Of a stretch of 64,000 bases of DNA, positions 24,386 through 61,866 are shown in pieces. The position numbers were made by a program, and so were the translations under genes. The stretch is from the NCBI RefSeq assembly GCF_030253575.1, contig NC_080569.1:23000001-23064000 (forward strand). Reading direction: 5' to 3'. The DNA is from Rhododendron vialii. Lineage: Eukaryota > Streptophyta > Magnoliopsida > Ericales > Ericaceae. The notes beneath the pieces are model-generated. The model saw nothing but the letters and a program-made list of their open reading frames with translations, was not told the origin of the DNA and searched no databases. Numbering within the stretch: position 1 is the first letter of the stretch; each line of letters starts with the position of its first letter.

Positions 24386-24439
24386 TGCTGCAAGGAGATT
24401 AAGCGAGAGTCAAGACTCAAGTGCCAAATAGAATAAGGA

Positions 24440-24720
24440 ATATTTTACAAGAAATGCATCACTGGATAAACACCAACTTGCTTTGCATATTTTTTTTAAC
24501 ACTATATAACGACAACTGCAGTGTTTTAAAGGCCAAAAGCAGTAGGTTAATTGATCAGTCTTCATGTGTAAATGGCCAAAAGATTTGAAACAATCTTCGT
24601 TAACTAAAAACTAAGATGGTATGAAATAATTAACGCCGACATAATCATGACTATATGACCAACATTACCTAATTACATGAGTTTTCTGAGAGATGGTAGG
24701 GACACTGTAAATGGTGTATG
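24440..24720. repeat. Upstream module of the PME cluster, copy next to gene 2
   Basis: Shares aatgcatcactggataaacacc, aaaagatttgaaac and cgacataatcatga blocks, in the same order, with 31385-31705 and 32155-32470. These are copies of one ancestral upstream region carried along with each gene duplication. Confidence 0.8.
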
Positions 24721-25795: not shown

Positions 25796-25803
25796 AAAAG
25801 AAT

Positions 25804-27194: not shown

Positions 27195-27202
27195 AAAAGA
27201 AT

Positions 27203-30827: not shown

Positions 30828-30874
30828 GATTTTAGCAAAGTGTGCTCAACTGAGCTTCTCTTGTCATGGTGCCC

Positions 30875-30883
30875 TTAAATAAA
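30875..30883 (-). promoter_or_regulatory. TATA-like box of PME gene 3
   Basis: TTTATTTAA on the minus strand, ~50 bp upstream of the ATG, conserved in position with genes 1 and 2. Confidence 0.55.
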
Positions 30884-32593: not shown

Positions 32594-32765
32594 TAGTGGT
32601 TAGCCTTGTTGTAACAAGAGTGATTGAGCCTATGATGGCAGCTACAGAGAGAGACCACAAAGAGGTTTTTCTTTTGGGAGTACGGTCTAGCAATGGCTGA
32701 TGGGTTGTTGCCATGAGTTTAGCAAAGTGTGCTCAACTGAGCTTCTCTTGTCATGGTGTCCTTAA
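32594..32765 (-). pseudogene. Truncated fourth pectin methylesterase copy (first ~40 codons plus leader)
   Basis: On the minus strand, the ATG at 32714 opens MATTHQPLLDRTPKRKTSLW and runs through the hydrophobic anchor (SVAAIIGSITLVTTRLT) before homology stops near 32594. The inhibitor domain, RKLL site and catalytic domain are absent. Compared with gene 3, about five codons are missing just before the anchor. The leader (agtgtgctcaactgagcttc) matches genes 2 and 3 up to the ccttaa of the TATA region at ~32765, where a 79-bp tandem repeat begins. It has lost both its body and its core promoter. Confidence 0.9.
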
Positions 32766-32915
32766 GAACAACAGAAGGTAGGGGGATAAGATTCATGACT
32801 TCATGCATATCTAACCGCGAATAAAAGGAATCGTTTCTTCTTAAGAACAACAGAAGGTAGGGGGATAAGGTTCATGACTTCATGCATATCTAACAGTGAA
32901 TAAAAGGAAATGGAC
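32761..32915. repeat. 79-bp tandem duplication at the breakpoint of the truncated PME copy
   Basis: cttaagaacaacagaaggta starts at 32761 and again at 32840. The two units match closely (ccgcg versus cagtg is the main difference). The first unit begins exactly where homology to the PME promoters ends. Confidence 0.85.
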
Positions 32916-35531: not shown

Positions 35532-35687
35532 TGTTGTTTGGAAGGAGAGAGTAAGAAAAGTGTATAGGGTATTAATTAACCCTAACACAAGAGAGAGCTT
35601 TTATTTATATTACTTAGTGACTTGTTACATAACTCCAACTATCCGATGTGGGACAAAGACTAACTATTCTAATACTCTATTCTAACA
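35532..35687 (-). repeat. Copia 3' LTR
   Basis: 156 bp, tgtt...aaca ends. It is 3 bp longer than its partner and otherwise nearly identical. Confidence 0.93.
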
Positions 35688-35694
35688 CTCCCCC

Positions 35695-38600: not shown

Positions 38601-38761
38601 GAAGTACCAGTCATATGATCAGAGGCACCAAAATCAATAACCCAAGGAGTAGAAGTGGAGGAAGATACAACACAACCAACGGATGAACCTTTCTGAGCAA
38701 GCGTAGCAGTGGAGGAAGAACTTGCAGTTGGAGACTGAAATGACATAAGGCGCTGGTACTC
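35695..38761 (-). pseudogene. Copia pol region: integrase, reverse transcriptase, RNase H (fossil)
   Basis: Read leftwards: a gag-pre-integrase HHCC-type zinc region (CRLGHPSLSNLQR, then CEVC), the integrase core (LVHSDIWGP ... FVNDFSR), copia reverse transcriptase (YGLKQSPQAWF, YVDDIIITGDD) and the copia RNase H end (AEAEYRAMA-like region through YCDNQAAIHIA). Family identity is secure. The region is no longer a single open frame and is treated as a fossil. Confidence 0.92.
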
Positions 38762-38769
38762 CTCTGTAG

Positions 38770-39405
38770 CAATGTTCTAAATGGCGCTTGGCGCTAGTAG
38801 GGCGGAGACCCACCTCCAAGCGCCAAGCCGCCTAAGCGCCCGCCTAGGCGCCGCCAAGCAATTTGGCGTTTTTTTTTTTTTAACAAACCATTATCCAATC
38901 AAACTATATTTTATGTATCCATAATACAAGTTCAAAGTTCTACATAACCATAATGCAAAATTAAATGTACAAACCCAAATGAAATTAAGTAGTAGCAACT
39001 AGCAAATAAGTTGAATAAGACAATAAGTAGAAATAAACGAGATCGGAGATTCCTAATGCCGAGTTAAAAGTTCATCTCCTTTCTTTAACTCTTCTCCTCC
39101 ATACACTTCCACAAAACTTGATCTACATTAGTTTAATACTATACATTTTAGGCCGCCAAAGGCCTCCAAAGACGTCGATGATGCCGCCAAGCCCCGCCAA
39201 GGCCCGCCAAGACCGCCAAGGCGGCCGCCAAACACCGCCAAACCTCCTTGGGCGCCAAATCGCCGAGACTGCCATGGCCGCCAAGGCCACCTAGGCGGCC
39301 GCCAAGACCGCCAAACCTCCCTGGGTGCCAAATCAAACGCCAAGGGGTATTGGCATGGCGGCAGGGTACCTCCAAGCGCCTCGGCGGCCGCCATTTAGAA
39401 CACTG
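38770..39405. mobile_element. Non-autonomous hAT-type element nested in the copia element, 636 bp
   Basis: The ends are inverted (caatgttctaaatggcg on the left; the right end reads cagtgttctaaatggcg in reverse complement), and the 8-bp duplication ctctgtag lies on both sides (38762-38769, 39406-39413). CA...TG ends with an 8-bp duplication are the hAT signature. The interior has a T-run, an AT-rich middle and two GC-rich arms full of gccgccaag words. No transposase is encoded. Confidence 0.92.
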
Positions 39406-39413
39406 CTCTGTAG

Positions 39414-40388
39414 AGATAGTCACCACATTGTCAGCAGAAGCATCCTGAGAGATAGCAACCTGATGAGCCTGAGGGAAACCGTGGAGATCATAACAGAACT
39501 CCACCGTATGATTGGTTCCCCGACAATGAGTACAAAACCTGGAATCCCGGCCGCGACCACGGCCACCTCCCCCTGATATACGACCCCCACGAGTACCAAA
39601 ACTAGAGTCACGACCAACAAAACCACGACCACTATCTCCAGAATCACGACCACGACCATTGAACCCAGAATCACGGCCACGACCACGGCCACGACTAAAG
39701 GAAGAGCCAGAACCACCAAATACAGTGGAAGCTAATGCTGAAGGATCAGGAGGTGGCACAGGCATAGATACAGAAGACTGACGAAGTCGACTAAAAACCT
39801 CGCTAAGAGAAGGTAAATCTCGAGATCCCAAAAGCTGATTACTGACGGGACCATAAGTAGTCGATGATACACCAGATATGAATCGAGTCACCTGCATACG
39901 CTCGTGCTGGCGCCGCATAAGCTGAACATCAGTAGAAATAGGCTCACAGATATTGAGCTCCTCACAGATACCACGAAATTTGGCATAATAAGACTCCAAG
40001 GATAAATCACCCTGTGAGATAGAAAAGGACTGATGAAGATCATATGTGCGATGGAGATTGTTAACACCAGAATACATCTCCTGAGCCTGTGTCCATACTT
40101 GTTTGGCTGTAGGTAAGAAGACCAGTGTACTAGAAATATGGTCGTCCATGCTATTCCATAATTCAAATCGAATCCGAGCATCCTCGGACACCCATGCCCC
40201 ATATGTGGCAGCAGTCGCTGCAGGGGGGTCATCTGTCAAAAAATGATACAATGTCTCACCCAAACAACATATTTTTTGCCATTCAAAAGTGTAGAGGTAA
40301 TAGACAGCCTCTCCCGAAATCGAGAAGAACGAGCAGAGCTACCAATAACAGCGGAAGAAGAAGCAGACTTAGTCTCCTCTGCAGACAT
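39414..40388 (-). pseudogene. Copia gag region (fossil)
   Basis: Gag of the copia 'UBN2/Retrotran_gag' type: WVSEDARIRFELWNSMDDHI, then LESYYAKFRGICEELN, an Arg/Gly-rich stretch, and a zinc knuckle (CTHCRGTNHTVEFC). Its 3' end is separated from pol by the hAT insertion. Confidence 0.85.
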
Positions 40389-40798
40389 TGTACCGTACAA
40401 AATAGAGGCAATCCAAACAATACATGACCACGCACCTTCAAACTACTAAACAATCGACCGATCAAACCTTGGATGCCAACTAATCAACAGCTAACAACTA
40501 ATAACCCAAATCATCCAACCCAACAGCATGCGACATCAGTAACAGCAACAAACCATACCAACCCAAGTGTTCAACGAAATCAATAAAGGCAACAACCCAA
40601 CAAAACTTCAATAATCAATACACAACATCAGTAATACCCAAACTGAAATACCCAACTGAAATATGCACAAATCATGAATACCCAATTGAAATACCCAACT
40701 TACATCAACGTGGAGTAAAGATCAAACTAAACAAGAGCAGAATGGAGTACGAAATTAACAGCAGAAGTCAGAATCAGCAGCCAGGAGGGTACCAGAGA

Positions 40799-40880
40799 GT
40801 TCGCCGGAGACTGGTGAGGGTCGCCGGAGGCTGGGCGAGGGTCGCCGGAGGCTGGGCGAGGGTCGCCGGAGGTTGGGTAA
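40799..40880. repeat. 21-bp tandem repeat in the copia leader
   Basis: Three to four copies of a unit built on gggtcgccggaggctgggcg. It lies between the primer-binding site and gag. Confidence 0.85.
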
Positions 40881-41055
40881 CGGTCGGCAAGGGTCGCCGG
40901 TTGCTGGATGCAGTCTGGGTTGGCTGGGTTTAGGGTTTTGCTGGGTTTAGAATTGTCGGGGGTGATGAAGTCAGTAGATGGATGATGGGTGGGTTAGGGT
41001 TGGTGGATTTAGACGCATATAATCTAAGGTGGATTAGGGTTAGGCTCTGATACCA

Positions 41056-41208
41056 TGTTTGGAAGGAGAGAGTAAGAAAAGTGTATAGGGTATTAATTAA
41101 CCCTAACACAAGAGAGAGCTTTTATTTATATTACTTAGTGACTTGTTACATAACTCCAACAATCCGATGTGGGACAAAGACTAACTATTCTAATACTCTA
41201 TTCTAACA
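41056..41208 (-). repeat. Copia 5' LTR
   Basis: 153 bp, adjoining the primer-binding site at 41043-41055. Confidence 0.93.
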
Positions 41209-43226: not shown

Positions 43227-44264
43227 TCACTGCCAACTCGAAGGCCAATACATATTAATCCCGTACCCTGTCTTCCAATTATCCAAGAACACCACCTTCG
43301 TCACCGCCCAATAAGAAACCACTAACGCGAAAATCATGACCGCCCTCTGCACCTTCACATCCCTCACCCTCACAAGGACATGAGTCACAAAAGCCAGTAA
43401 CAACCCCACAACAGTATACAAAAACCCCACAGCAAACCCCTCAGCCCCCAGCTGCATCCCCGACCCCTGGTAAAAGAAAACCAGCTTCGACGGATCGTCA
43501 CGGTCCACCATAAACATCGGCATATGCCGAATTATATTATGCATAGCCCCAGAAACACTAAAGAAGTATACAAACACAGCTCCAGCCAACCACAAATTGG
43601 GATCGTGCAAAAGGGTTTCGCCCGCAACCACTCTTTTAATGACGAAAGGCATCAAGACCAGCAAACCAGCAACCATCACGATGACCTGTTTCTTGGAAAC
43701 GACCGGGGGTCGGTGGATGGGGCCGACGGTTAACTGGGTTTTGGACTCGACGAACTCGGCCATGGACTCGGCGAGGCGGGAGAAGTCCCCGGCTTCCATT
43801 TGGATCGAGTCGGCTTTGAGGTCGAGAGCGGTGGAGGGGACGAGGCGGATGTGGGGGAGGGAATTGACGGCGAAGAGGGCGAAGGATTGCTGGGATTCTC
43901 TGAACTCGAGGTCGCAGAAGAAGAGGTGAGGTTTGTTAGGGTTAGGATTAGGGTTGTTTTGGATGAAGGAGGAGGCGAGGAGGGAGAATTCAGATTTCAA
44001 GGGTTTGAGGCGGAGCTCGGACTTGTCGTGGAGCTGTTGGGCGTCGAAGAAGAGGAGGAGGGAGAAGGGGCGGGGAGGGGAGGTGGAGGTGAGGAGGCGG
44101 GAGATGAGGGAGTCGGTGAGGTGGATGACGCCGGCGGGGGATTGGGATTGGAGGTTGAGGAGGTCGGAGACGAGGTCGGAGGTGGCGGTGGTGGTGGTGA
44201 GGAGGGGGAGGAGAGAGAGGAGGAGGAGGAGGAGAGAGAGAGGGGTGGATCTGGGGGTCGCCAT
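43227..44264 (-). CDS. Oligosaccharyltransferase complex subunit OST3/OST6 family
   Basis: This subunit of the ER oligosaccharyltransferase helps N-glycosylate nascent proteins. It is a single exon of 345 residues. I take the ATG at 44264 (MATPRSTPLSLLLLLLSLLP), which has a good context (ATGG, A at -3) and starts directly with a signal peptide; the frame continues a little upstream but without a better ATG. Residues ~30-185 form the luminal thioredoxin-like domain (FSLLLFFDAQQLHDKSEL; HLFFCDLEFRESQQSF). Four membrane segments follow (~195-215, ~225-245, ~280-305, ~315-335), with the family block SGAMHNIIRHMP between TM2 and TM3 and the end GYGINMYWPSSWQ. The CxxC redox pair of yeast and animal homologues is not seen in the luminal domain. 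The N-terminal coding half is strongly GC-biased. Confidence 0.93.
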   Translation of the reverse strand: MATPRSTPLSLLLLLLSLLPLLTTTTATSDLVSDLLNLQSQSPAGVIHLTDSLISRLLTSTSPPRPFSLLLFFDAQQLHDKSELRLKPLKSEFSLLASSFIQNNPNPNPNKPHLFFCDLEFRESQQSFALFAVNSLPHIRLVPSTALDLKADSIQMEAGDFSRLAESMAEFVESKTQLTVGPIHRPPVVSKKQVIVMVAGLLVLMPFVIKRVVAGETLLHDPNLWLAGAVFVYFFSVSGAMHNIIRHMPMFMVDRDDPSKLVFFYQGSGMQLGAEGFAVGFLYTVVGLLLAFVTHVLVRVRDVKVQRAVMIFALVVSYWAVTKVVFLDNWKTGYGINMYWPSSWQ

Positions 44265-45060
44265 TGATGGGTCTTCTTCAGAAGTCTTCTGAAGAAAGGG
44301 AGAAAGCAAGGGTTTTGTTTTGTTTTGTTTTGGCTTTGGATCGGCGATGACTTCCGATCGGACTTGAGACGGTTGACTATACTACTACTATTGTGCAGTT
44401 TATTATTTATTTTTGAAAAGATATTGTGCAGTTTATTAGGTTTTGGTTTAGGCCTTGTTTGGTTTCAATCTAAACGCAATAAGACACAAAAACCATACGG
44501 GAATCATGTAGGGCGCCCTACATGCTACATGCTATAGGGTTGGATGCATCACGCCAATCGTTCATCTCAGTAATTAATAGTCTAAAATTAAAACAAGCTC
44601 TTTTAATTTGTTTGAAATCCGGACCATCGAAAACGCGCGGTTGATGCCCTATAACCGCTGTAATGCAGGAGTGCCCTACAGCTTTTGTAGTGCATGAGTG
44701 CACTACAGGTTTCCGAATCTGAACAATATTGATAGATTTTCTGAAATGCTATCTTCTGCTGTCAAGAATGAGAAAATCATTTTTGGCACCAATTTGGGGT
44801 TAGCGAAATTTTCCGTTTTTATTCAATTAATTTGATTTGTATAAAAATGGGATGAAATAAATTTAATGGTCCGAGTTTGAAATTATGGGGAAATTGCAAT
44901 AGATCGATGAAGCAGATATGCTACAATTTGGCTTTTTGACATAACAACAAACCATAAAAATGACTTTAGCGAAGAATTTTGGCACCATTTCAATTTTCAG
45001 GTGCTTGCTCTAAGACATTTTTTCTTGTCGCTAGCATAAAATATCAAAAAAGAGAAAGAG
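44265..45060. other. OST3/6 upstream region and spacer
   Basis: 5' flank of OST3/6. It contains the candidate MITE at 44498-44716 and otherwise no gene. Confidence 0.5.
44498..44716. mobile_element. Candidate small MITE with imperfect ends
   Basis: The left end (cgggaatcatgtagggc) and the reverse complement of the right end (cggaaacctgtagtgc) are similar over ~25 bases at ~70%. The left end includes the perfect 16-bp palindrome tgtagggcgccctaca. No certain target duplication was found. Confidence 0.4.
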
Positions 45061-45069
45061 ATAAAGAAA

Positions 45070-45287
45070 GAGTGATTTGCCTTTATATCCCTTCGATTTA
45101 TGTGAAAAGTTCAACTTAGTCCTTCCAGTTTCAATTTCACCCAACTAAACCTTCGATTTCCAAAATTATTTCAATGTCATCCTTCCAATGCCTCTCGTCA
45201 TTAAATTGGACAGAAAAGGGCCATGTGCCCATCACATGAGCCTCCCCCCAAGGGCATATTTGCCCATTCCCCCCTCCCCTAACCCTA
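45070..45287. repeat. MULE left terminal inverted repeat
   Basis: 218 bp, paired with 61641-61857. It probably contains the promoter region for the GRF gene. Confidence 0.95.
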
Positions 45288-45379
45288 TATCCATTGGAGG
45301 GAAATGCCTCCATTTATACCGCCATTTCACCCATTATCCATACCTCTGTCTCTCTCCTCATCACTGGTTAGCATGTCTC

Positions 45380-45383
45380 TCTT

Positions 45384-45420
<37 letters not shown>

Positions 45421-45563
45421 GTCTCTCTCTCTCTCTCTCTCTCTTATATATATATATATATATTTCTATCTGTAACTCTCTCTCTCTCTCTCTATCTTTC
45501 TATCTGTAACTCTGTCTCTATCTCTCTCTGTCTCTGTCTCTTTCTGTCTCTCTCTCTCTTTCT
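45380..45563. repeat. (CT)n/(TA)n microsatellite in the GRF gene leader
   Basis: A long run of ctctct with interspersed gt and a (ta)n block at about 45445-45462. It ends ~30 bp before the GRF start codon and is expected to be length-variable. A ttttacag acceptor-like site at ~45566-45573 could mark a leader intron. Confidence 0.85.
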
Positions 45564-45593
45564 CATTTTACAGGTTATCATCTCCCACCCACC

Positions 45594-45986
45594 ATGGATT
45601 CTTCATCTTCAACAAGCACAAATGCAATGATTCCTAGGTACAGAACTAAATATTGCCATTGCAAGCTCCAGGCAGTCATCAAAGTGACTAATTCAGATCC
45701 AAACAGAGGAAAATTATATTACTCATGTCCAAATGGAGTCTGTGAGATATGGGATTGGTGCAAGCCAATTAACACAGTCCTAAGTGTGCCAACCCAAAGG
45801 AGGTTTGTCCATGAAGATGAGACAGAAAAGGCAACATATGGGGATGAAAATGCAAGACGTAGGGTTGATAATGCAATGGTAGCTAGGATGCAAGTGCTTG
45901 AAGGGCAGCTAGGAACTGTAAAGATGATGGTGGCCATGTGCCTCATCACCATTGTCTTGTGTTTTTTTGTTATCCTACTGAAATGA
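45594..45986 (+). CDS. GRF-type zinc-finger protein with C-terminal membrane anchor (At4g04775-like), inside the MULE
   Basis: A 130-residue single-exon protein; the ATG sits in a strong context (caccATGg). The GRF zinc finger is at residues ~20-57: Cys21-His-Cys23, RGKLYYSC with Cys45, Cys50, then W-D-W-C with Cys56. GRF fingers bind single-stranded nucleic acid in other proteins, for example NEIL3 and TOP3A. Residues ~85-108 are charged and helix-prone, and the last 20 residues form a hydrophobic tail anchor (MCLITIVLCFFVILL). The layout matches the uncharacterised At4g04775-like plant family. The frame is intact although the transposase gene of the same element is not. A role in transposition (in the manner of mudrB) is only a guess; it may be a captured host gene. 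Confidence 0.85.
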   Translation: MDSSSSTSTNAMIPRYRTKYCHCKLQAVIKVTNSDPNRGKLYYSCPNGVCEIWDWCKPINTVLSVPTQRRFVHEDETEKATYGDENARRRVDNAMVARMQVLEGQLGTVKMMVAMCLITIVLCFFVILLK

Positions 45987-46248
45987 ATGTAATGCACCTA
46001 ATGAATGAAATGAATCAGCTTTTGTGGGTTTGGAAACTTGTGTTTATTTACATGGCATTACAATAGACAAAAGGCAGTTCAATAATATACCTAATTGCCA
46101 AACCATATGACAGTTGATGAATAAGACAATTCATTGAAGAAGAAGACAGTTGCATTAACTATAATATCAGTTTAAAACTTGCCAAAATCAGTGCAATACA
46201 ACCATTCAACATCAGTCAATACATAAACCAAATACCAACTTAGGAACC

Positions 46249-46377
46249 AACCATTCAATATCCAGTTAACACAAAAACCTACTTGCCAACCAACCATTCA
46301 ATATCCAAACATTACAAAAACTTACTTGGCAACCAACCATTCAATATCCAAACTTTACATAAACCTACTTGGCAAAC
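46249..46377. repeat. Three 43-bp tandem repeats between the convergent MULE genes
   Basis: The unit starts aaccattcaatatcca at 46249, 46292 and 46335. It lies just beyond the stop codon of the transposase gene (46387-46389), so in its 3' flank. Confidence 0.85.
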
Positions 46378-46451
46378 AAAATAAACCTATTGTGCTGGTG
46401 GTTGTGAAGCCCTACCCCTTCCATAACCCCTGCCCCTTCCAACAGTCTTTC

Positions 46452-47143
46452 TGTGGGGCTCCATTTTGGGTGGTTCGTCCTTTTTGAGTTGTGGTTCGGG
46501 GTTAGCTCCTATCTCCTTTGCTCAATCCTGCAAAAAGAAGCACGACTAAGAGACCACACCGGAGGTTCTCCGGGATGGCCCTCCGGTGCAAGAGTCAGTT
46601 TGCTTGCAAGGCAGAGTTAGAGATTTGGAGCTAGGGTTTTGTTTGAGCATACCTCTTCCAAGAAGGCATAATGGGATATTTATAGGAAACCCTTCGCTTG
46701 ATCTCCAAGATTGCACCAACGCTTGACACGCGTCGGCTGATGTCACTGTTGCATCACGTTTAGGGTTTTGCAACCGTTTTTATGATGAGCTGGCACCTTC
46801 ACGTGCCACCATCATTGTCCTCATAACCGTTCGGATGACGTCACGACCATCATCATAGCCATGGTTGCTGTTCTGATGCGGATGAGCTGGATCGTCAGCC
46901 AAGCCATGCTCGACACCGAGCATGTTGTGGCACCTTCGGCAGCTATCCAAACGAACGTATCCTCCACCCCGAGCAGGTGTAGGGAATGAACCATGAAAGG
47001 AGGTGTGATTAGAGGAACCCTCGGCGACGGGGACCTTCGGCTACGGTTGCTGATCCGAACGTCCAAAGGGAGATGTCTTGGAGTTGAAAGTAATACTTGA
47101 TCACGCTCGGAATGGACCGAGCCATTTTGCTCGGCCTGCTACA
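46452..47143 (-). repeat. Tat element 3' LTR
   Basis: 692 bp. Near 46673-46690 it contains a TATA-type box on the minus strand (ctataaatatcc). Confidence 0.95.
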
Positions 47144-47411
47144 ATAGCCCCTCAACCCTTGCCGAGGCTCTTCACTAGGTATGGGTTCATTTAAGACTTG
47201 GCCGAGCTTGAACCTTCGGCAGATTAATCCGAGCCCCACATAAGATAACAACTGTCGAGTATTCGAACGGGTGTGTCAGTTGAAAGGACGTTTTGGCAGA
47301 CGAGGAGACGGCTAGCATGGGCAAGGGCTTCAGTTGCCACGTGTCACGTAGAGGTTGGCGAGGGGTTCGGCGGTGAAATGATGGGCTGGAAATTCGAAAA
47401 GCCCCGCCCCG

Positions 47412-47421
47412 TTTATAAATA
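47412..47421 (+). promoter_or_regulatory. TATA box of the antisense gene
   Basis: tttataaata stands ~30 bp before a CT-rich leader (tttctctctctagcgcttgg). It is well placed for an independent promoter. Confidence 0.7.
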
Positions 47422-50400
47422 CCGGTGAAGGAGGAGAGAGAAAGTTCTTCTGCACTTTCTCTCTCTAGCGCTTGGAGCTTCTCTCTCTACATTTCCATTC
47501 CAGAACTCAGCTTGAATCCAGATCCTCAACTTCAAGCCCCAAATCAACTGAAATCTTCAGGTATGTCATCGATTCTTATCGTTTTACTCTTTCTCTCGCT
47601 TTTCATGCTTATTTTCTGGGTTTTTGGAATGACTTTGGGGGTTTTTTGTACTGTATGAACAGTAGATTTCTGGGGAGAACGATGATGTTCATCCCTGAAC
47701 TCAACTTGTTCTTCCGAGCCCCCATAGGAAGTCTGGGGCTCGCCGAACGATTTCTTTTGATGGGGGTAAATAACCGAACGTTCCCCAACTCTCTTATTTT
47801 GCCGAACGTAGGGAGTCTTTATAGAAGTACCGAGCCCACTATAGGTTAGCATGTGACTCGTGAGCCGATAAGATGAACCGAACTTCCAAACGATCTTCTT
47901 TGCCGACGCAGATTTCAATAGCTTAATACCCCTTTGTTCTTTTCCTAGGTCTGGCTCATGAGGTCATCGACGTGTCATCTGACTCGGATTACTCGGAAAC
48001 CGAATCCGATCGTCAATTCCTCAGCGAACTTATCGAGTGGCGTAGGTTAAGGAATAGCCGAGCGGTTGTATCTTCTTCAACAAGGATGTCGGCAACTTCT
48101 CCAGTGTCAGACGATTCTAACGCCGAGCGTGATTACGAATACGCCGCCGATGACTTCCTCACGGAGCCCGAGATAAGCTTCTCGCCAGAAACCCAATCCG
48201 AAACCGAGCCACAAGTCGGGCAAGAAGCCAAGTCCAGGCTTATGTCAGGAGCCGAAGCTTCGACATCGGTTTTAAGCGACACCGACCTTTTTGACAAGGG
48301 CTTGCTATGCCCCTACGCTCATTATTTCAGCGGCAGCCCTGGGGAGTACGAAGCCTTCCGAATGAAATACAACATTCCCGCGGATGTTCTGCTTCATAGA
48401 GTCAAGAGCACTGACATAAAAGACCATAGGGATCACCGTCCCGAGCATATAACCGTGCCTTTAATGGCCATTTGTGAGGCCGAGCTTCGGTTCCCAATTC
48501 ACCCCTTCCTTAGGGAAATTCTTTGGAAATTCAATTTAGCCCCCCATCAACTCGCGATCAACAGTTACCGAATCATTATGTCGGTAATTGCCTTGATCGA
48601 GAGTCAAGATTTGGATTTTACGCCGACGGACCTCTTTTTCACATACACCATGTCTAGACACGGGAAATCTGGCCGTCGGTATTTGTCGACGCGTCCCAAA
48701 AAGCAGCCTCTGATAAACGGACTTTCGGATACCGACAAATGGGCTGACTTTTACCTCGAAGTGCATGGAAACTTCGAGTTCGGCGACGGTCTCCGTCGGT
48801 TCACCGTTCCGAAAGTGGCTGATACAAGAGGTGATCAGACCGAACGTGCTTAAGTCATTTATTGCATTCTACTTTTGTCTTCTTTTCTGCTGAGGGTATT
48901 TCTTGAATTGCTGTTTTTTTTTTTTTTTTTTTTGCAGAGCTTGGCCCTATTTCCAAGGGACTTAACACCAACTCTCGGGAGAAGGCGACCGAGACGCTGC
49001 TTGCCCAGGTTTGCCGTCACGCTCCGACCCTTCTTGAATACCGACCCTCCTACAAAGGTGTACTTAGGAGGAAGGAGAAAGGGAAAGAGGTCGCCCAGAG
49101 CAATAAAAAGGCACCCAGTACTCCAGCTGCCGAGACTGTACAAAAGAAGAAGGGAAATTCCAACGCCGCCGGAATTAAAAAGAAGAGGCAACAAGGAGGG
49201 GTGAGATTGCCGAAGATTGGATTTACAGCAGAGGAGTGGCTTACTCCGTTTGATTCTGCCGAACTTCCCCAATCCTCCTTCGAAGACATGTCAAGAAGGA
49301 ACATTCCAAGGCCCGTGATCCCAACGAAGACGGCTAATCCTGGCCGAAGCCGAAGCTCTACCGAGCAGCATAGTCAGAAGGAGAAGAGACAGAAAACGTC
49401 AGAGGACGTTGTTCTGCCGAACATCTCACAACCCGTGCCTCTTGACACTCTTCAAGCCCCTTCAACAAAGGATCAGGGGAATTTGGTTGAACCTCACATT
49501 GATCTTACCGATCCAGCCACCGAGGCCGCCGTCCGTCGCCAGTTCAGCCCTTCATATACGATGCCTGATGGCAGGGTTCTCCTTCAGAACGACTCAGTAA
49601 AAGAAGAGCCGAACCTTGCCATCACGCTTCTGAGGGGGCTGGCCCTGCCGAGGGATTATGATCAGGTTCCAACCGAGCTCCTTCCAAGGCTGGGTGAGAT
49701 GTGTTCTCATCTTGTTCAGGTTTGTTCCCTTCTTTCTTTCCTCCATCTTTTCCCTGTTTATTTCCTATCTCCTCCTTTTTTTTTTACTTTGCTCTTTTGA
49801 TTAGGCTGGGCAGGCTGCACTGAAGGCGTATGACAAAGCTTCTAAGGTCTCTGCCGAACGAGAGAGGTATAGGTCTGACCGAGATTCTTGGCGAACCAAG
49901 TTTAGGATCTCGGAGCAATAGGTCAAGGATGAGGAGGTCGAGATGGAGAGGTTAAAGAAGGAACTTGCTGAAGCTAGAGCCGCTGCCGAGACTGCTGAGG
50001 CCGAGGTGATAAAGCTGAAGGATGAGGAGAAAGAGAAGATTACATCTGCCGACGCCCGTGGTTATGAGGCCGGGATCCAGAGAGCCGCCTTAGAATACAC
50101 CCAGGTTGCTCATAAAATGGTCAACGACGAACTTGAAGTTCGGTTACCGGACTTCTTCAAGCTGGGATATGCTGCCGGTGCTGACGCCATGGCTGGTGTT
50201 ATGGCGATTCAGCCTGAGTCAGGTTTTCTGAAGCAACTTCCCGAGCCGGCTGTACCTGACCTTGACCTTCCATACACCGAGGAGGAGTGTCAACCTCTTC
50301 CTCCAGAGGATGACGATGAAGAGATGGCCGAAGCGGCTGTGGCTAATCCTCAGGGGAAGGCTGGAGGAGATGAGGACCATCCCGAGGCTCAGGACAAGGC

Positions 50401-50422
50401 TGCTGAAGATACCCCAGTTTAG
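47412..50422 (+). CDS. Antisense gene of the Tat element (Transposase_28 / 'putative gypsy type' family)
   Basis: It is transcribed opposite to gag-pol, between pol and the 3' LTR, the place where Tat-lineage elements such as Grande and Retand carry an antisense gene. A TATA box lies at 47412-47421. Coding blocks at 47950-48853, 48938-49720 and 49806-50422 are bordered by intron-like GT/AG junctions, including a long T-run before the acceptor at ~48937. The first block has an acidic Ser-rich N-terminus and the Transposase_28 core (FPIHPFLREILWKFNLAPHQ; INSYRIIMSVIALI). The last block is coiled-coil (AEARAAAETAEAEVIKLKDE) with an acidic end. It is treated as part of the fossil element; it may not be fully open. 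The function of this family is unknown despite its name. Confidence 0.7.
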
Positions 50423-50699
50423 GATTTCCCTTAGGCTTTTATTTTGTTTTTAAGGTATTTTGAACTTTGCTTTTGGACTGGATGGCACCGAACATTTGGG
50501 ATTTTGCCATGCCAGATGTAATAGTTTTAAGGGGGTCGGCATCAAACATTTCACTAAGCCGAGCCCTCTTCGTAGGAGTTTTTTGAATTCCAAGTTTATG
50601 TTTAAATGGTGACTTAGAAGGAATTCTCAACTTTGTTACTGCACTGAATTTTTCTCCATGCCTTAGAAATTTTTCCTGATTTTGGCTGCCGAGGGTTAA

Positions 50700-51130
50700 G
50701 CAACCTTGGCTTGCTTTGAAAGTTTTGATAGTTACTCATGATAGCCCCTACTTTGGTGTAAGGCTCGGCTCATAATGCCAGTCTTATGCCAAGGTAATGG
50801 GTAGAGTAATTGTTTGATGTGGCCATTTAGTTCAAGTCAAATTATGAACATAGCCGTACTGAGGATAAACTTTCAAGTTCATCTATTGCTTTCTGTTTGG
50901 ACTTTAAGTTGTCCGAATTGTTTATGATTTACTCAAAACAGCCCCAATGCTGGTATAAGGCTCGGCTCAAAATGCCAGCCTTGTAACAAGGCAATATGTT
51001 AAGTAAATGCTCTAAGTGTGGACATTGCCGAATCAATTTGTTTAATCGAGTTGTGGCTGGAAATCAAATTGTTCGAGCCATAATCATGTTTGCACTAAAG
51101 AAATCCGAACGTAGCTGTAATTGTTAGAAT
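50700..51130. repeat. ~200-bp tandem repeat pair in the Tat spacer
   Basis: The blocks taaggctcggctca...aatgccag recur at about 50759 and 50957 with similar surroundings (agcccc before; caaggcaat or caaggtaat after). This spacer separates the antisense gene from pol and has no coding signal. Confidence 0.7.
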
Positions 51131-51310
51131 ACCGAGCTTATAGCGATTGATGTTTGAATCATTGTAATCAAATATAGAGAACACTGATGCTTCAGAAGTA
51201 GGAGAGGCTTTTCATTAAATAAAAGATGGTCAAAACAAGTACAGCATTGTTGTATGAGAAAAGTAATAGTCTTGAGGGCTTTTGTGATAGATTGAGACTG
51301 ATGAGAGACT

Positions 51311-54300
51311 TCAAAGGTAGGCCTTCCTGAGGTTCAGAGCGTTCCAGGGGTTCTCAATTTCCCTTCCCTCTTTGTCTTCTAACTTGTACGAGCCGTGGCC
51401 GACCTCTTTAATCACCCTGTAGGGTCCTTCCCAATTTGGTTTGAATTTTGTCTTTTGATTGGCTCGGACAACCTTTCTCCAAACCCAGTCATCGGTTCTG
51501 AACTTCTTAAGCCTTACGCTTCGATTGTAGCCCCGAGCGACTTCTTGCTGATAGTTGGCTAACTTGAGCTGAGCGTCGTCTCGCTTTTCTTCGGCTAAGA
51601 TTAGCTCGGTTGCCACTGCATCATTGTTAGATTCTAGATCAAAAGTTTCGGTACGCAGGGTCGGGAACTTTGATTCCAATGGTATGACAGCCTCCATGCC
51701 GAAGGCCATTGCAAAGGGAGTTTGGCCAGTGGAGCGTCTGGGAGTGGAGCGATAGGCCCAAAGGACCCTAGGCAGTTCCTCGGCCCATTTTCCTCGTTTT
51801 GAGTCAAGCCGATGTTTGATGCCCGCGCGAACAGTTTTGTTAGTGGCCTCGGCCTGGCCGTTGCCCTGGGGGTAGGATGGGGTTGAATTGAAGAATCTAA
51901 TTCCGAACTCAGCATAGAGCCCAGTTAACTCTTTTCCAACGAATTGGGAGCCATTATCTGACACAATTGCATAAGGCACGCCGAACCTTGTGACGATGTT
52001 TCTCCAAACGAATCGCCGAACGTCTGTTTCAGTTGTTGTGACTAACGGCTCCGCTTCCACCCACTTTGAAAAGTAATCCGTTGCAGTGATTAAAAACTTG
52101 AAGCCCCCAGGGGCAGTTGGAAGTTTGCCTACTATATCCAAGCCCCACTGAGCAAAAGGCCATGGACTAGTGATAGGTTTGAGAGATTAAGCGGGTTGCC
52201 TTGGTATGGGGGAGAAAAGTTGGCAAGGCTTGCACTTTTTGACCACTTCTTCATAATCCTTCTTCATTCCTTTCCAGAAGTATCCCTGACTGAGAGCTCT
52301 TTGGCATAGGGAACGTCCGCCAGAGTGACAACCGCAGCTGCCAGAGTGGAGCTCGGTTAAAATAATTGGGACCTCGGTTGGGTGAACGACTCGGAGATAT
52401 GGCCCGGTGAAGCTTTTCCTGTATAGTTGGCCGAGCTCAGAGATCCAGTGGTAGGCTGCTTTGCTGCGTACACGGTGGGCTTCCTTTTTGTCAGAGGGAA
52501 GAGTATCATCCTTGAGGAACGAGATGATTTCATCCATCCAACTTGGGCCGAGGGAAATGTTGTATACTTCTTCCGATACTTCAAAGCTCGGCTGGTGAAT
52601 CTCGCCGAGGCTGATGTGTCGGTATTCAGATGCTTTGCTTGCCGAGGCCAAACTTGCAAGAGCATCGGCATGAGCATTGTTCTCTCTGTTGATCTGTTCG
52701 ATTTGGAATCCTTTGAACCCTCGGATTAGCTCTAGAGCGGTAGCTTGATACTTAATCATTCTTGGGTCCCGAGCTTCATAATCACCTGTTATTTGATTGA
52801 CGATCAGCTGAGAGTCGCAGAACACTTGTAAATCTTCAACTTGTAAACTTGCCGCGGCTCGGAGGCCAGCAAGCAAAGCTTCATATTCGGCTTCGTTGTT
52901 TGTGGCTTGGAAGTTGATTGTGATAGCACTTTCATGAAGGACGCCACAAGGGTTTACAAGAACAACCCCTGCGCCCGAGCCATTGCTGTTTGATGCCCCG
53001 TCAACATGCAATTTCCAAACGTCTCCGCTAAATAAGTTCCAAACTTTCCGAGCCTCTTGTTGTTCTAGCATCCCATAATTAGGCTTGACCAATGTTTCCT
53101 CGTCCAGGCTTCCAGGGGTGAACTCAGGGATAAAGTCTGCCAATACTTGTGCCTTGATTGCAGTTCGAGGCTCAAAGTGGATATCAAAATTTGCTAATTC
53201 GACCGCCCACTGAGATACTCTGCTTGATAGATCAGCTTTCCTCAAGAGATTTTTAAGTGGAAACTCCGTGAGAACTATGATGGGGTGCTCTTGAAAATAA
53301 GGGAGCAATTTTCGAGCTGTTGTAACCAATGCTAGAAGGAGCTTCTCCAGTGGCAGATATCTAGTCTGTGCCGGGAGCAAGGTTCGGCTAGAAAAGTAGA
53401 TTGGTTGGTCTTCAAGGCCTTCCCGTCGGACAAGTGCCGAGCTCACGGCGTGTGGAGAGACAGCTAGATAGAGATGAAGAGTTTCGAAAGCTACTGGTTT
53501 GACAAGAAGAGGGGCCGAACTGAGATAAGATTTCAGCTCGGCGAGGGCTGCATCACAATCTTCCGTCCACTTGAAACTTCGTCGGCTTTGCTTCTTAAGC
53601 GTTTGGAAGAAGACATGGCATTTATCCGACGAGCGGCTGATAAACCTGTTGAGAGCCGCTGCCATCCCAGTTAGCTTCTGAATTTCCCGAGGAGTTGATG
53701 GTGGTTTCAATTGCTGAATAGCTGAGATCTGGTTCGGATCTGCTTCGATACCACGCCGAGTAACCAAATAGCCGAGGAACTTCCCGGAGCTAACTCCAAA
53801 GGCGCATTTGTCGGCATTAAGCCGTAGCTTGTGCTTCTTCAATATTGCAAAGACCTCGGCAAGATGAGAGAGGTGATTCTCGACCTTTAGACTTTTCACC
53901 ACCATATCGTCAATATAAGCCTCCATGATTTTTCCGATGAGAATTCCGAACAACAGGTATACCATTCTTTGGAATGTGGCACCCGCATTCTTAAGGCCGA
54001 ACGGCATAACCAGGTAGCAGAAGAGGCCTCTGGGTGTGATGAATGCCGTCTTTTCCATGTCGTCGGGATCCATGGCTATCTGGTGGTAACCTCGGTAAGC
54101 ATCCAAGAAACTCAGCCGAGCATGACCCGCCGTTGCATCTACCAATTGATCAATTTTTGGAAGGGGAAGACAGTCTTTCAGACAAGCATCATTCAAGTTG
54201 GTGTAGTCCACGCAAACTCTCCATTTCCCATTCTTCTTTTTCACCACCACAGGGTTTGCGAGCCAGGTGGGGTATTGTACTTCTTTGATGGCGCCAGCCT

Positions 54301-55659
54301 CGAGGACTTTGCCGACTTCTTCATTTACTGCGTCGGCGTGAATGCTGGCCGACCGCCGAGGCTTCTGAATCGCAGGCTTTGCTGATTTTGAAACTTTGAG
54401 GGAGTGCTGGATGAGCTTTGGGTCAATGCCTGGCATTTCGTACGGCGTCCATGCAAAAACTTCGATGTTGCTTTTGAGGAACTGCAAGGTTTCTTCACTC
54501 TCGTCTTGGGATAGACCAGCGCCGAGCATGAAATAACGTGATGCATCCTCGTTAAGAGGGAATTTGATAAGATCCTCAATTGATTTCTCTTCAGGAAGAG
54601 ATCCGACGTCTTCGAGAACTGGTTTGTCAGGGACTTCAACCCAATGTATTCTTTTGGAGCTCGATGACTTTCCAATGGCCGAGACGTAACACTGTTTGGC
54701 TTGTAACTGATCTCCAAATAGGTCTTCTTGTTTGCCGTTAGCGTCGATGTACCTGACCACTTGATGGTAGGTTGAGGCGACGGCCTTGATTGAATGGAGC
54801 CAATTTCGGCCAAGGATTGCGTTGTATGGGCTCGGTGCATCTACAACAACGAATTCTTGATTAGAAGCAACCGAGCCCGTAACGACGGGGAGGGTAATCC
54901 TTCCGAGAGGCCAAACTGAAGTGCCACGAAACCAATTAATGGGACTTCTGCTGGTAATAGGCATGACTGTGGTATTTTGAGCTCGTTAAAGAGAGATAGA
55001 TACATCACTTCTACCGAGCTTCCTTGATCAATAAGCACCCTTTTGACCGAGTGAGTTGAGATTTGGAGTGTGACCACCAGAGCGTCGCAATGTGGAGTTT
55101 GGATGCGTTGAAGATCTTGCTCGGTAAATGAGATTGACCAGGGACGCTCGAGCATTTTGACTCTTTTTGGAGCACGATCGATGGAAAAAACTTGGGTAAC
55201 ATTCTCAGCTTTGACAAGCTCTCGGCGAAGCTGTTTTGCTGCCTCCTTTGTTGTTGACCCATGAATAACGTTGATTACTCCGACTGGTCGTGGAATGAGG
55301 TTTTGTCCACCAGCGTTCGGCTGTCTCCTCGGCGTCTTTGTCCAATCGATATGATCATCAAAAAGTCCTTGTGCCGCTAGATTTTCCAAAAGTGCCTTAT
55401 ACGGAGCGCAAGCCGTGGTGTAATGCCCGAGCTCGTTATGGTACGAGCATCTCTTTCGATTGTTGTTATTGCCTTCTTCTGTGTTCAATTTGGGAGGGTT
55501 CGGCCAAACAAAGAACGGTTCCCTCTCAATCGTACGGAGGAGGAAATAAATTGGCTCTTTGAAAACTGTGGTTTCAGCTATATAGTCATGAGCTTTCGGC
55601 CCCTTTTTGTCTGCTACCTTGACTGTGTTGACCTGCTTCTTCGGCTGGACAGCGACCAC
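51311..55659 (-). pseudogene. Tat pol region: protease, RT, two RNase H, integrase (fossil)
   Basis: Read leftwards: a zinc knuckle-like region, aspartic-protease-like block (VLIDQGSSVEVMYL), reverse transcriptase (FLDAYRGYHQI, YIDDMVVKS), the usual gypsy RNase H (YFSSRTLLPAQTRYLPLEK), a second archaeal-type RNase H (LHVDGASNSNGSGAGVVL; NNEAEYEALLAGL), HHCC integrase finger (CQLF block) and integrase core (ATDYFSKWVEAEPL; VSDNGSQFVG). The dual RNase H is a hallmark of the Tat lineage. Confidence 0.92.
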
Positions 55660-55719
55660 AGGCTTCGGTGGCGCGATTTGGGGCGTGGGAACATGAAGGC
55701 TTTGAGGTACAATTGAGTT

Positions 55720-57404
55720 CTATCCTCCTTGGAGTTCTCGCTCGGCGAGGAACTCTTCGTAGGTGCAGAACTGTTCTACCGTCCTCATTAGCTCGTTCAT
55801 TCCATGAGGCGCCCTTATTGCCAGCTCATCCAAGATCTTGCTTCCAGTTTCCAAACCATTCTTAAAATTCCTTGCCGCCCAGTATTGATCAACACCGGGT
55901 ATCTCGTTAAACAACTGCCAGTAACGTTCGGCATACTTCCGAAGCGTTTCGCCGGGCCTCTTTCTCATCTGTGCCAAGGCATCTTCTTCCTTGGCTTGCT
56001 TGTTGCTAGTGATGAACCGATAGTTAAAGCTCTTTCAAGCTCTTTGAAACTATGGATCGATCCAGCCTCTAATTGGTTGAACCAAAGCAAGCCGAGGCGC
56101 CCAAGACTTGAGGGGAATGCTTTACACATGATGGCATCGTCGTCGGTGACACACGAGATGGTGCTTCTGTAACTGATGAGATGGGTGTATGCCTCGGTCG
56201 TGCTGGGATCGAACTTCTGAAACTTTGGGAGATGTAGACCTAGCTTCGGCAACGTGGCTTGGATCTTTGCCGAGAAGGGTGATTCTGTCAGCTTTTTCAA
56301 TTGGTACTCGTGGGTTGGCCGAGGGGGAAGACCTTCCCGAGCGTTTCGAAACTTCTTTGATGCTCGGAATTCTTGTTCCCTTTGTTTTCCTTCGTTCTCA
56401 TCCTGCCGACGTTGAAATCCCCTCTCCTTCTTCTCTATGGGGACCTTTCTGTACTCTTCTTCTGGAAGATTTTCAGTATGGTAAACCCTTCGTTGGCTAG
56501 GGCGATCGTCTTGCCGAACGACGACACTTACACTCCTTTCACGGTTTAACCTCCGAGTGCTTACTGAATTTGTTGCTCGTCCTTCGTGGGCCTTTTCCCG
56601 AGGGACTTCATCATGTTCGATCCGATGGCTCTGGGGACCTTTCCCGTTTCTTCTCGGCGTTCGGCTTCTTTGCCGTTCGGATTTGTACGGGATGAGAGCC
56701 TGATCGTTGTCTTGGAATCCCACGGTATCGTAGCTTTGGGAGCCCTGGGAGTATTCGTCTCCAGCCGATGAACTTGAGAAAACAGTATGCGGGCTCCCCT
56801 CTCGCTGTCCTTCTCCGCCTCTATGTCCCGCACCATTGCCGAGACGTTTATGAACTGGTGAGAGCTGCTGCCTAAGGCGAGCGCTATCCCCAGTTCGATG
56901 GTCTGTCAATAGTGGGTCCAGGCGGTCGTGGACTGAAATTCTTTTTGGCCGCGCATCAACACCCAAAGGAGGAGGGGGTGGCAGATTTCCTCTCTGGCGC
57001 CGACCCTGAGATCCGGAGTGGGATGCCGTTGGAAATTCTTTGGCCTTAATTTTTTCGATTTCCATTCGTAGGAGGGCTACATCAGCGTTGGTCTGTTCTT
57101 GTTGCTGTTCTAGCATTTGTACGTATGCTAGAGCATCTTCACTCAGGCCCACTGGACGTTGGATGGAAGAGCTCACGCCTGGAGGAGTAAATCCTGGAGG
57201 GTGAGATGGGGAGGCAGCGTTGATACCAGTTTCAGAGGTGATGTGCAAAGAGGAACTGAGGGGTTGAAAGAGAGGCGGTGGTGGTGGCGCTCCGCCCATT
57301 GTTCTTTGGAGGAGACTGGTGGAGATCTCGAGAGGTGAAGTTTTTAGGTACGAACGAGGCGGTCGAGGTGGAGGAGCCGCCGTGGATCTGAGAATCAAGC
57401 TCAC
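55720..57404 (-). pseudogene. Tat gag region (fossil)
   Basis: Starts close to the primer-binding site with a Pro-rich N-terminus and a coiled stretch (LEQQQEQTNADVALLRMEIE), then an Arg/Ser-rich middle, then the retrotransposon gag domain (YTHLISYRSTISCVTDDDAI; RKRPGETLRKYAERYWQLFN). Family identity is clear. Confidence 0.85.
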
Positions 57405-57420
57405 GTCAGGTTCACCAAAT

Positions 57421-58112
57421 TGTGGGGCTCCATTTTGGGTGGTTCGTCCTTTTTGAGTTGTGGTTCGGGGTTAGCTCCTATCTCCTTTGCTCAATCCTGC
57501 AAAAAGAAGCACGACTAAGAGACCACACCGGAGGTTCTCCGGGATGGCCCTCCGGTGCAAGAGTCAGTTTGCTTGCAAGGTAGAGTTAGAGATTTGGAGC
57601 TAGGGTTTTGTTTAAGCGTACCTCTTCCAAGAAGGCATAATGGGATATTTATAGGAAACCCTTCGCTTGATCTCCAAGATTGCACCAACGCTTGACACGC
57701 GTCGGCTGATGTCACTGTTGCATCACGTTTAGGGTTTTGCAACCGTTTTTATGATGAGCTGGCACCTTCACGTGCCACCATCATTGTCCTCATAACCGTT
57801 CGGATGACGTCACGACCATCATCATAGCCATGGTTGCTGTTCTGATGCGGATGAGCTGGATCGTCAGCCAAGCCATGCTCGACACCGAGCATGTTGTGGC
57901 ACCTTCGGCAGCTATCCAAACGAACGTATCCTCCACCCCGAGCAGGTGTAGGGAATGAACCATGAAAGGAGGTGTGATTAGAGGAACCCTCGGCGACGGG
58001 GACCTTCGGCTACGGTTGCTGATCCGAACGTCCAAAGAGAGATGTCTTGGAGTTGAAAGTAATACTTGATCACGCTCAGAATGGACCGAGCCATTTTGCT
58101 CGGCCTGCTACA
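57421..58112 (-). repeat. Tat element 5' LTR
   Basis: 692 bp, same length as the partner LTR and five substitutions away. It holds the promoter for the gag-pol transcript. Confidence 0.95.
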
Positions 58113-60659
58113 CTTTCCTCATCCACCATCACCTATTCTCCTTCCACCATCAGTCATTCCCCTTCCACCATCACCCCTTCCTCGTCCACCATCACCCTTT
58201 CCCCTTCCACCATCAGTCATTCCCCTTCCACCATCACCATTTCCCCTTCCAGCACCACCCTTACCCCTTAATGCTTGGCCTCCTTCAGTTGGTGCAACAA
58301 TAAGTCCCCTTCCTCTACTACTAAATGCTTGGCTTCCTTCTTGCCTTGGCCTTCCTCTTGGCTTTCCAGTTGGCCTATTGAATACTAACCCTCCACTAGG
58401 CCTCCTCCTAATGTCAAGATTAACTTCATTTTTGTAGCTCCTGATGTTATGGCTCCATTGACCACATTTGTCACACCTCAATGAAGTATTCTATCTCTTT
58501 AGCTTATCTGCATCAGGATTCTCCATCTCTTCTCTTTCCTTCCTTCTAGATTTCTTTGGTCTGCCAGTAGACCTGCCATAGTTGGGAGGGAGAACTAGGA
58601 CACATCCACTTGAATGCCACATGGTCCAACCATTGATGGGGTAAATGATACCCTTGTAGATGTTGGCACTTGTCTCCTTTCCATAGCAAGGGTGGCAGTA
58701 ATCTAGTATGTTTTCATGTTTGAAAGTAATGGCAACAATAGCATGAACACATGGGATACCTTTCAAAATCTCATCTTCTAAAGCTATATGTGTGGTCCAC
58801 CAAATTCAAACTATACTGCTCTGGTGGAGGGCAATGTATTTGGAAATGTCCCTCACCATACTATATTGGGTTATAACCACTGACTCTTTTCTTATACTTC
58901 TCTATTTTTTTATGACATTGGAGCTTATGTTGTGGTCCCACTTGGTTATTTTGTCTCTCCTTCTAGCCATTCTTTTCATTAAGTAGCACCTGATCCCTTC
59001 CAACATAGTTATAATTGGTTTATCTCTAGCCTTCCTTATGTCTTTGTTAAAACCCTCACATAGGTTGTTAACAAGAATGTCACAATTATTAAAAGTGAAA
59101 AAGTGAGACCTGGACCATTAACTGGCTAGTTTTTCTACTAGCCACTTGTATGCCTCCACATCAGTAGTCCTCATCAAATCCATTGCTTTATGAAATTTTG
59201 TGAATGTTGTAGCTCTAGCTGCTGCCCATAATTGTTTCCTCAACTCCATCCCCTTATGTGAATCTCTGAAATTTGTATACAAGTGCCTAGTGCAGAATCT
59301 CATCTCTACATTTGGCATCACTTTTTGTAATGCTGGAACCAGACCCTACAAAGTGAAGTATGAGAAGATGAAATTAAATATACTTTTGCAGCATTAAATA
59401 AACAAGATGAAATGAAAACAAACTAGTGAAGCTTTACCTTTTATTTGTCTATCATGAATGTCCATGCACTTGTGTTTTGAATTTCTAAGTCTTCAACCAC
59501 CAACTCCAAAAACCAGGTCCATGTGTCCTTGGTTTCACTCTCAGTAACATCATATGCAAATGGGAATGACTGATTATTAGCATCTATCCCCACATCAACT
59601 AACAACTAACCCCTATGTGCTCCTTTCAAGTGGCATGCATCCATACATACCAACCTTCTACAACTAGCTAGCATTCCTTGCTTTAATGCCCCCAAACATA
59701 CATAAATTCTCTCAAATATTGGCTGACCATCTGGAGTTGGAGAAGGTATAGTTTTCATGATGATTGTGGTGCTAGGGTTTGTTCTCCTTATCTCTTCACA
59801 ATAATCCCTTAACCTGACAAATTGTTCCAAATTTGTTCCCTCAATGAGGTTAAGTGCTTTCCTCTTAGCCCTATATGCTTGAGTGTAGGAAATGTCAACC
59901 ACAAGATCCTTCCTCACTCTTTGTTGCAAGTGATCCAAAGGCATATTAGGATTGGATCTTATGCTATCCACATACTTCTTAGCAAGGTACTTTGAGGTTA
60001 CATGCCTTACTTTGAATGATCCGAGACAATTATGTTCACTTTTGTGGGTTTTAACTTGAAATGATTCACCTTTTTGAGAAAGTGAAGCCATAACACTCCA
60101 ACCACATCTCTCTGTAGCACATTTAGCTTTTACTTTTGTGGTCTCATTCTTTACAAACTTAATGTCTTTTCCTTCTTTTATTGAATACTCTCTTATTGCT
60201 TCCCTAAACTCTTTTGCTGAGGGAAACTTCATCCCTACAATAAACTGGACCTTTCCCAAATCAGTTTCTCTTCTATACTCATGAAACTTGTCTTTCTTCC
60301 TATCATCATCAGAGTTTGAACAAGCACTATGGAGATCATCTGATGAATCATCTCCATAATCTTTGCCATCATCATCATCATCTATGTCATCATTCAAGTC
60401 TGGTTCTTTCCCTTTACTGTTGTCAAACCCTGCCCATTCAGCCTCTTCATCAATATTAGCCTCATATAACCCATCATCATCAGACTGCTCATAGTTACTA
60501 TCTACCTCAAATGACACATCAGACTCACTAGTTCTATCACCTAAATCTTGAACATCTACCTCATCACAAGTTGTACCATCACAAAAACCATCTTCAAAAA
60601 AAGCATCATCAACAAGAAAATCTTTCATAGTTGACTTCATGACATGGCCCTCCCTTATC

Positions 60660-60860
60660 AGTTGGACCCCTCGTATCACTTCTAGAACCCTTATCAGTTT
60701 GACTTGGACCCCTCCTTATCATTTCTAAACCCCTTATCAGTTTCAGTTGGACAGTCCTTTTCAGTTCTAGACCCCTTATCAGTTTGAGTTAGACAACCCT
60801 CATCAGTTTTACACCCCTTCTGAGTTTGAGTTGGACTCCCTTTATCAGTTGGAGTTGGAC
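60660..60860. repeat. Degenerate ~20-bp tandem repeats in the transposase linker
   Basis: Repeats of ccccttatcagtttgagttg type, coding on the minus strand for LIRGVQL-like words. The reading frame changes within this array. Confidence 0.7.
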
Positions 60861-61640
60861 CCCCTCATCAGTTTGACTTTCCATCATTTCAATGGGAATA
60901 ATTGGTTCTACATACATGTCCACTATCCTACTTGGGGGAAGTTGCTTAATCGTCTCTATTACATCACTGTCAGTCAATAACATTCTCAACCCATTGTTAA
61001 TGTTTTTCCCAGTCATCACATAGTAATAATTTATCATACCCATGTACCTCATTGCCCCAACAATATCACAAACAATAATTAAAGACATTATATCTGGGTC
61101 ATATTTTTCACAGGAATCAGCACAACCACCTTCGTACCTGATTGTGGGCTTATTAAAGAACTTTCCCCCATGATGAATCTGTATAGTGAAATGGCCTCCT
61201 GTACATGATTAAACAATGTTTATGGGACCACAATCAGAAAGGAACACTACAACGGACAAAACAAACCCAGCGCTTTTCAAAAAACAAAAGGCAACCGACA
61301 CATGCAAACAACCCAATCCAGAACCCAATAAAGCATATATGTTCAGAAAAATAGTTTTTCTTTACTGAAAAGGACAACTTGTATCAATTTCTTCCCAAAA
61401 TTTATGCCATTTATTCTACACATAACCGAATGAATAACTCACCTAGGTTTTTTCTCTGTTCCTTGGCATGCTTCAAGATCGTCTGGGAAATCGACCACGA
61501 TTCCCCTGTTGTAGTCTCTCTCTTACTCGACCTCCAATCCCCCTTCATCCCTTCGTCGTCTCAACTTTTTGGGTTAAGAGGAGAAATTAGGTCGTTTGAA
61601 AGTCATCTGAAGGTAGAGTGAGAAAGAGTGGAAATCGATT

Positions 61641-61857
61641 AGGGTTAGGGGAGGGGGGAATGGGCAATTATACCCTTGGGGGGAGGCGCACGTGATGGGC
61701 ACATGGCCCTTTTCCATCCAATTTAATGACAGGAGGCAACGAAAGGATGACATTGAAATAATTTTGGAAATCGAAGGTTTAGTTGGGTGAAATTGAAACT
61801 GGAAGGACTAAGTTGAACTTTTCACATAAGTCGAAGGGATATAAAGGCAAATCACTC
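61641..61857. repeat. MULE right terminal inverted repeat
   Basis: 217 bp, paired with 45070-45287. It lies about 90 bp upstream of the transposase start codon and probably carries its promoter. Confidence 0.95.
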
Positions 61858-61866
61858 ATAAAGAAA

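Follow-up and report, generated by a model that had tools for sequence, protein, structure and literature searches.

A decayed Mutator-like element in Rhododendron vialii with a transposase gene, a convergent GRF zinc-ribbon open reading frame and a nested Tat element

We analysed a stretch of 64,000 nucleotides from Rhododendron vialii (contig NC_080569.1, positions 23,000,001 to 23,064,000), here called the window and numbered from its first letter, which holds a Mutator-like element (MULE) with two convergent genes and a nested Ty3/gypsy element of the Tat type (table 1). Alignment of the two ends of the MULE (45070-45295 against 61857-61633) revealed long terminal inverted repeats (TIRs) that match over 226 columns with 212 identities and one gap, scoring 342 bits, whereas the best score among 100 pairs of Markov-generated 600-base sequences was 24.7 bits. 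Within the window, the plus strand contains the 9-mer ATAAAGAAA only twice, each time exactly at an outer TIR end; a 9-base match at a fixed place would arise by chance with a probability of about 5e-6. Long TIRs and a target-site duplication (TSD) of 8-11 bp, usually 9, both characterize MULEs. A preliminary description of this DNA had proposed a single MULE bounded by long TIRs and a perfect 9-bp TSD, and the TIR match and the flanking ATAAAGAAA copies bear this out. The 218 bp given there for the TIRs needs correction to the 226 columns of the alignment, although the long repeat pair itself is real. We regard the MULE anatomy as near certain. Divergence between the TIRs (K = 0.060) is unusable as a clock.

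Most of the present span is occupied by the nested element, which measures 11,661 bp, or 69.5% of the MULE, in agreement with the earlier estimate that a gypsy element makes up 70% of its length. Without it, the MULE is 5,122 bp long. The long terminal repeats (LTRs) of the insertion are 692-bp direct repeats, 99.28% identical, which start with TG, end with CA and are flanked by a CTTTC duplication. Hallmarks of Tat elements are a gypsy-type reverse transcriptase and integrase, a second RNase H, and great length with open reading frames (ORFs) on the opposite strand. Minus-strand frames between the LTRs contain RVT_1, RNase H, RVT_3 (the second RNase H), the H2C2 integrase zinc-binding domain and the rve integrase core. 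Plus-strand ORFs lie at 47927-50422, between pol and the left LTR, and one of them gave a sub-threshold match to PF04195. By these hallmarks, the nested element fits Tat. It entered the Gly/Arg-rich 3' coding end of the MULE transposase gene, whose frame resumes on the far side. Because it is nested inside the MULE, the Tat insertion is the younger of the two, and LTR divergence of only K = 0.007 indicates that it is recent.

The larger MULE gene encodes a MuDR-type transposase, as had been proposed: its DNA-binding region matched PF03108 (E = 1.2e-15), and two adjacent pieces matched the MULE catalytic domain PF10551, one with E = 3.4e-6 (27.9 bits, cut-off 27.6) and the other below the cut-off with E = 0.0012 (19.6 bits). 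The gap separating the two PF10551 pieces looks like an intron. All three catalytic residues of a MULE transposase of the DDE type are kept (D at 59639-59641, D at 59447-59449 and E at 59055-59057), though the reading frame is broken. Seven in-frame stops, given by the lowest base of each codon, lie at 59606, 59441, 59118, 58902, 58806, 58491 and 58119, the first of which (59606-59608) interrupts the catalytic domain. The element is therefore not an autonomous MULE, which would have an intact transposase gene, and to call it complete, as the preliminary description did, is right for its anatomy and overstated for its function because of these stops. Individual stops might fall in introns; the gene as a whole looks dead. 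Downstream of the catalytic domain, inspection by eye identified two remnants, neither with a Pfam match: one of a SWIM domain, in which the final C and H survive, and one of a zinc knuckle, which begins at 58475. The Gly/Arg-rich tail is made of 21-bp repeats, and the two flanks of the Tat element share one Gly/Arg-rich frame, the stop at 58119-58121 excepted, which ends at the stop at 46387-46389. A search for structural relatives of the DNA-binding piece found no PDB entry of note.

Upstream of the DNA-binding domain, the reading frame differs between the N-terminal piece and the DNA-binding piece, and no single frame is open across 60660-60876. Tandem repeats occupy this interval, where the frame changes, and form the linker that joins the N-terminal region to the DNA-binding domain. 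The frame change is either a frameshift or an unrecognized intron. The N-terminal region had been described as PB1-like, and it presumably resembles N-termini of plant MULEs that carry this label in databases. For the piece at 61199-60879, hmmscan found no Pfam family even with E values of up to 10 allowed, and that at 61199-60873 had no NCBIfam match and, by phmmer, no PDB relative of note and no PB1 structure. A single-sequence fold of the region was weak and uninformative (predicted local distance difference test score, pLDDT, of 32). The PB1-like domain is thus without profile, sequence or fold support from the tools used. A PB1 domain has been reported in a short 5' exon of MUGB genes (PMC3435246; here and below, statements on published work refer to the passages of the cited papers that deal with the elements in question).

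At the opposite end of the MULE, within a surrounding frame of 158 residues, the second ORF scored above the curated cut-off of the GRF zinc-ribbon profile PF06839 (26.2 bits versus 25.9, E = 8.5e-6). Comparison with the GRF repeats of NEIL3 gave a weak match, with E = 0.013 for the whole sequence and no single significant stretch. The encoded protein has a hydrophobic stretch at about residues 111-129, with hydropathy up to 3.09. In the structural model this stretch is the end of a helix spanning residues 76-129, with pLDDT of about 93 over the last 20 residues. An AG acceptor, seen by eye directly before the ATG, suggests that the GRF gene has a 5' untranslated intron running through the CT-rich tract.

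Both genes lie inside the TIRs with convergent reading frames, the transposase on the minus strand and the GRF ORF facing it on the plus strand, which is the opposite-strand two-gene layout of MuDR that had been proposed for this element. Each gene starts beside a TIR: 299 bp separate the GRF start codon from the inner end of the adjoining TIR, and the putative ATG of the transposase lies 85 bp from the other TIR. With the Tat element set aside, the two stop codons are 400 bp apart, and the genes therefore converge. The physical pairing of both genes within one unit bounded by TIRs and a TSD is firm.

We interpret the element as probably a dead copy of a MuDR-type two-gene MULE that was later hit by a Tat element in the 3' coding end of its transposase gene. 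In living relatives, the transposase would bind the TIRs and move the element, and both genes would be transcribed inwards from the TIRs. The GRF protein would act as an element-borne helper, which is the weak step of the scheme and is suggested tentatively. GRF zinc ribbons of APE2 and NEIL3 bind single-stranded nucleic acid, and the same would be expected of the zinc ribbon encoded here, while the helix may serve as a membrane anchor or form a coiled coil. With similar reserve, we propose that there may be a plant MuDR-type MULE lineage in which the regular second gene, as a counterpart of mudrB, encodes a GRF zinc-ribbon protein that has a helix at its C-terminus, and that many annotated small plant 'GRF-type' genes could be these transposon genes.

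Several observations weigh against this interpretation. The GRF profile score barely exceeds its cut-off, and the structural model has a mean pLDDT of 56 with the zinc ribbon poorly modelled. At the stop rate of the transposase gene, about 37% of 130-codon stretches would remain open, and when 1000 versions of the CT-rich left arm were generated with a Markov model, 54 held an ORF this long or longer. Because of these chance figures, the ORF is marked as a gene only by its domain match and not by its length; its intactness as a sign of selection was considered and rejected on the same figures. A rice relative of the barley element Abermu that lacks the opposite-strand ORF (ORFR) appears to be mobile (PMC9168764), which weakens the helper idea, and the present element is known from one copy. 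These last two points would equally suit a different origin, in which this copy acquired all or part of a host gene in a single event, in the manner of Pack-MULE transduplication, and the GRF gene has no role in transposition, the opposite-strand gene being dispensable. Gene capture is indeed frequent in MULEs (PMC6446971, PMC13317346). The ORF found here, however, encodes an entire small protein with its own start and stop codons, and like other second genes it adjoins a TIR and points towards the interior of the element; we consider a single capture rather doubtful, if a serious contender. That the GRF segment represents an independent small insertion within the MULE is very improbable. The MULE already contains one nested insertion, but a search of 45296-46446 for inverted repeats of at least 14 bases returned only an AT microsatellite, shorter ends and small target duplications lying outside that search.

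No additional MULE or GRF copies were found in the window, where each of eight query pieces matched only itself. Outside the window, a scan of viral contigs with the transposase protein returned one locus, L001:5001-5090, with 30 residues at 37% identity; the matched part of the query (residues 249-278) either spans the first catalytic D or immediately precedes it. A second protein scan of viral contigs found none of two stretches, and scans of prokaryote genome contigs found none of 37 and none of 16. Nor did the viral contigs contain a match to the 19-base TIR end. These misses say little because such collections should contain little plant DNA.

Table 1. Parts of the MULE and of the nested Tat element, in window coordinates.
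Feature	Position	Strand	Remarks
MULE TSD, left copy	45061-45069		ATAAAGAAA
Left TIR	45070-45295	+	212/226 identical to right TIR
GRF zinc-ribbon ORF	45594-45986	+	PF06839; 130 aa, intact, C-terminal hydrophobic stretch
43-bp tandem repeats	46216-46379		Between the two convergent genes
Final transposase segment and stop	46387-46446	-	Severed by Tat; same Gly/Arg-rich frame on both flanks
Tat TSD, left copy	46447-46451		CTTTC, outer flank of LTR
Nested Tat-type Ty3/gypsy element	46452-58112	-	LTRs 46452-47143 and 57421-58112
Tat TSD, right copy	58113-58117		CTTTC, outer flank of LTR
Decayed MuDR-type transposase	58118-61199	-	N-terminal region, repeat linker, DBD_Tnp_Mut, MULE catalytic domain, SWIM/zinc-knuckle remnants, Gly/Arg-rich tail
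Possible transposase exon 1	61443-61548	-	ATG 61548, donor after 61443; putative splice sites, placed by eye
Right TIR	61633-61857	-	Pairs with left TIR
MULE TSD, right copy	61858-61866		ATAAAGAAA

The gene content of the window is that of a plant, with pectinesterases, an OST3/OST6 gene and a PPR gene. The MULE sits in the upstream region of the minus-strand OST3/OST6 gene (43230-44381; PF04756, E = 7.5e-75), with its left end about 0.8 kb from the start codon of that gene. Pectinesterase-like genes form a tandem minus-strand cluster at 15971-32911. It consists of three main repeat units, with 75-85% identity between the longer pairs, plus a shorter remnant at 31.1-32.8 kb; PF01095 was shown for one piece. 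A Ty1/copia element lies at 35535-41208 on the minus strand, where 153-bp direct repeats, 99.3% identical, are likely its LTRs, and its frames appear by eye to be broken in places. The window also contains a 398-bp head-to-tail duplication at 8835-9628 (99% identical) and, at 1057-1758 on the minus strand, a zf-RVT fragment that is probably a remnant of a long interspersed nuclear element.

The role of second genes in MULEs is an open question, and a second gene with a recognizable nucleic-acid-binding zinc ribbon would make it testable. A GRF-bearing MULE could also account for a group of small plant genes, which would then be cargo of transposons. For annotation, the locus is a warning that a nested LTR element can conceal a MULE and so make its GRF gene resemble a host gene.

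Maize MuDR has long TIRs, a 9-bp TSD and convergent genes. Its second gene, mudrB, is not known to have a GRF domain, whereas the second gene here is a GRF zinc-ribbon ORF and the transposase is broken. Published descriptions of MuDR likewise report a MuDR-type transposase together with a second gene of opposite orientation (PMC9168764, PMC6446971), and mudrB, although of unknown function, is apparently required for integration in maize (PMC6446971). No word starting with 'GRF' occurs in the main text of PMC6446971, PMC9168764, PMC13317346, PMC3435246, PMC2528002 or PMC8616336, and a pairing of GRF with a MULE was not found among the matches listed for the open-access literature, subscription papers and Repbase being outside this search. 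In its account of gene-family evolution, an Asteraceae genome paper mentions GRF-type zinc fingers next to domains of transposons (PMC10359422), a passage that would fit GRF genes carried by transposons and proves nothing.

Like the present element, members of the MUDR and MUDRAVI2 groups are plant MULEs with a SWIM-type transposase, TSDs of 9-10 bp where indicated, and TIRs of 30-320 or 80-290 bp (PMC6446971). In the passages of that paper on extra motifs and ORFs, these occur in many plant MULE groups and are mostly the plant mobile domain, often antisense in MUDR groups, with no GRF among them; according to Table 1 of Dupeyron et al. 2019, an antisense plant mobile domain is present in most of the MUDR group, and it is frequent in MUDRAVI2 (PMC6446971). 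In the present element the second ORF is GRF instead. Barley Abermu, also a transposase-bearing MULE, carries on the opposite strand an ORFR that shows no similarity to MURB, but differs from our element in having three ORFs and, as described, no GRF (PMC9168764). Kaonashi, VANDAL, melon and grapevine MULEs with Ulp1 or VANC also carry an extra gene, and in some grapevine families Ulp1 runs opposite to the transposase (PMC13317346, PMC2528002). That gene is a protease domain or an anti-silencing gene and not GRF, and Vandal and Kaonashi are described as non-TIR MULEs (PMC13317346, PMC2528002). MUGB (MUSTANG B) shares the MuDR DNA-binding, MULE and SWIM domains and has a published PB1 domain (PMC3435246); these are domesticated genes, whereas the present element is a transposon in which PB1 is unconfirmed. 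Convergent two-gene MULEs are therefore already known from MuDR, MUDR elements bearing the plant mobile domain, and Abermu. GRF as the second gene is unusual and mildly new, in what is otherwise an ordinary nested and decayed MULE.

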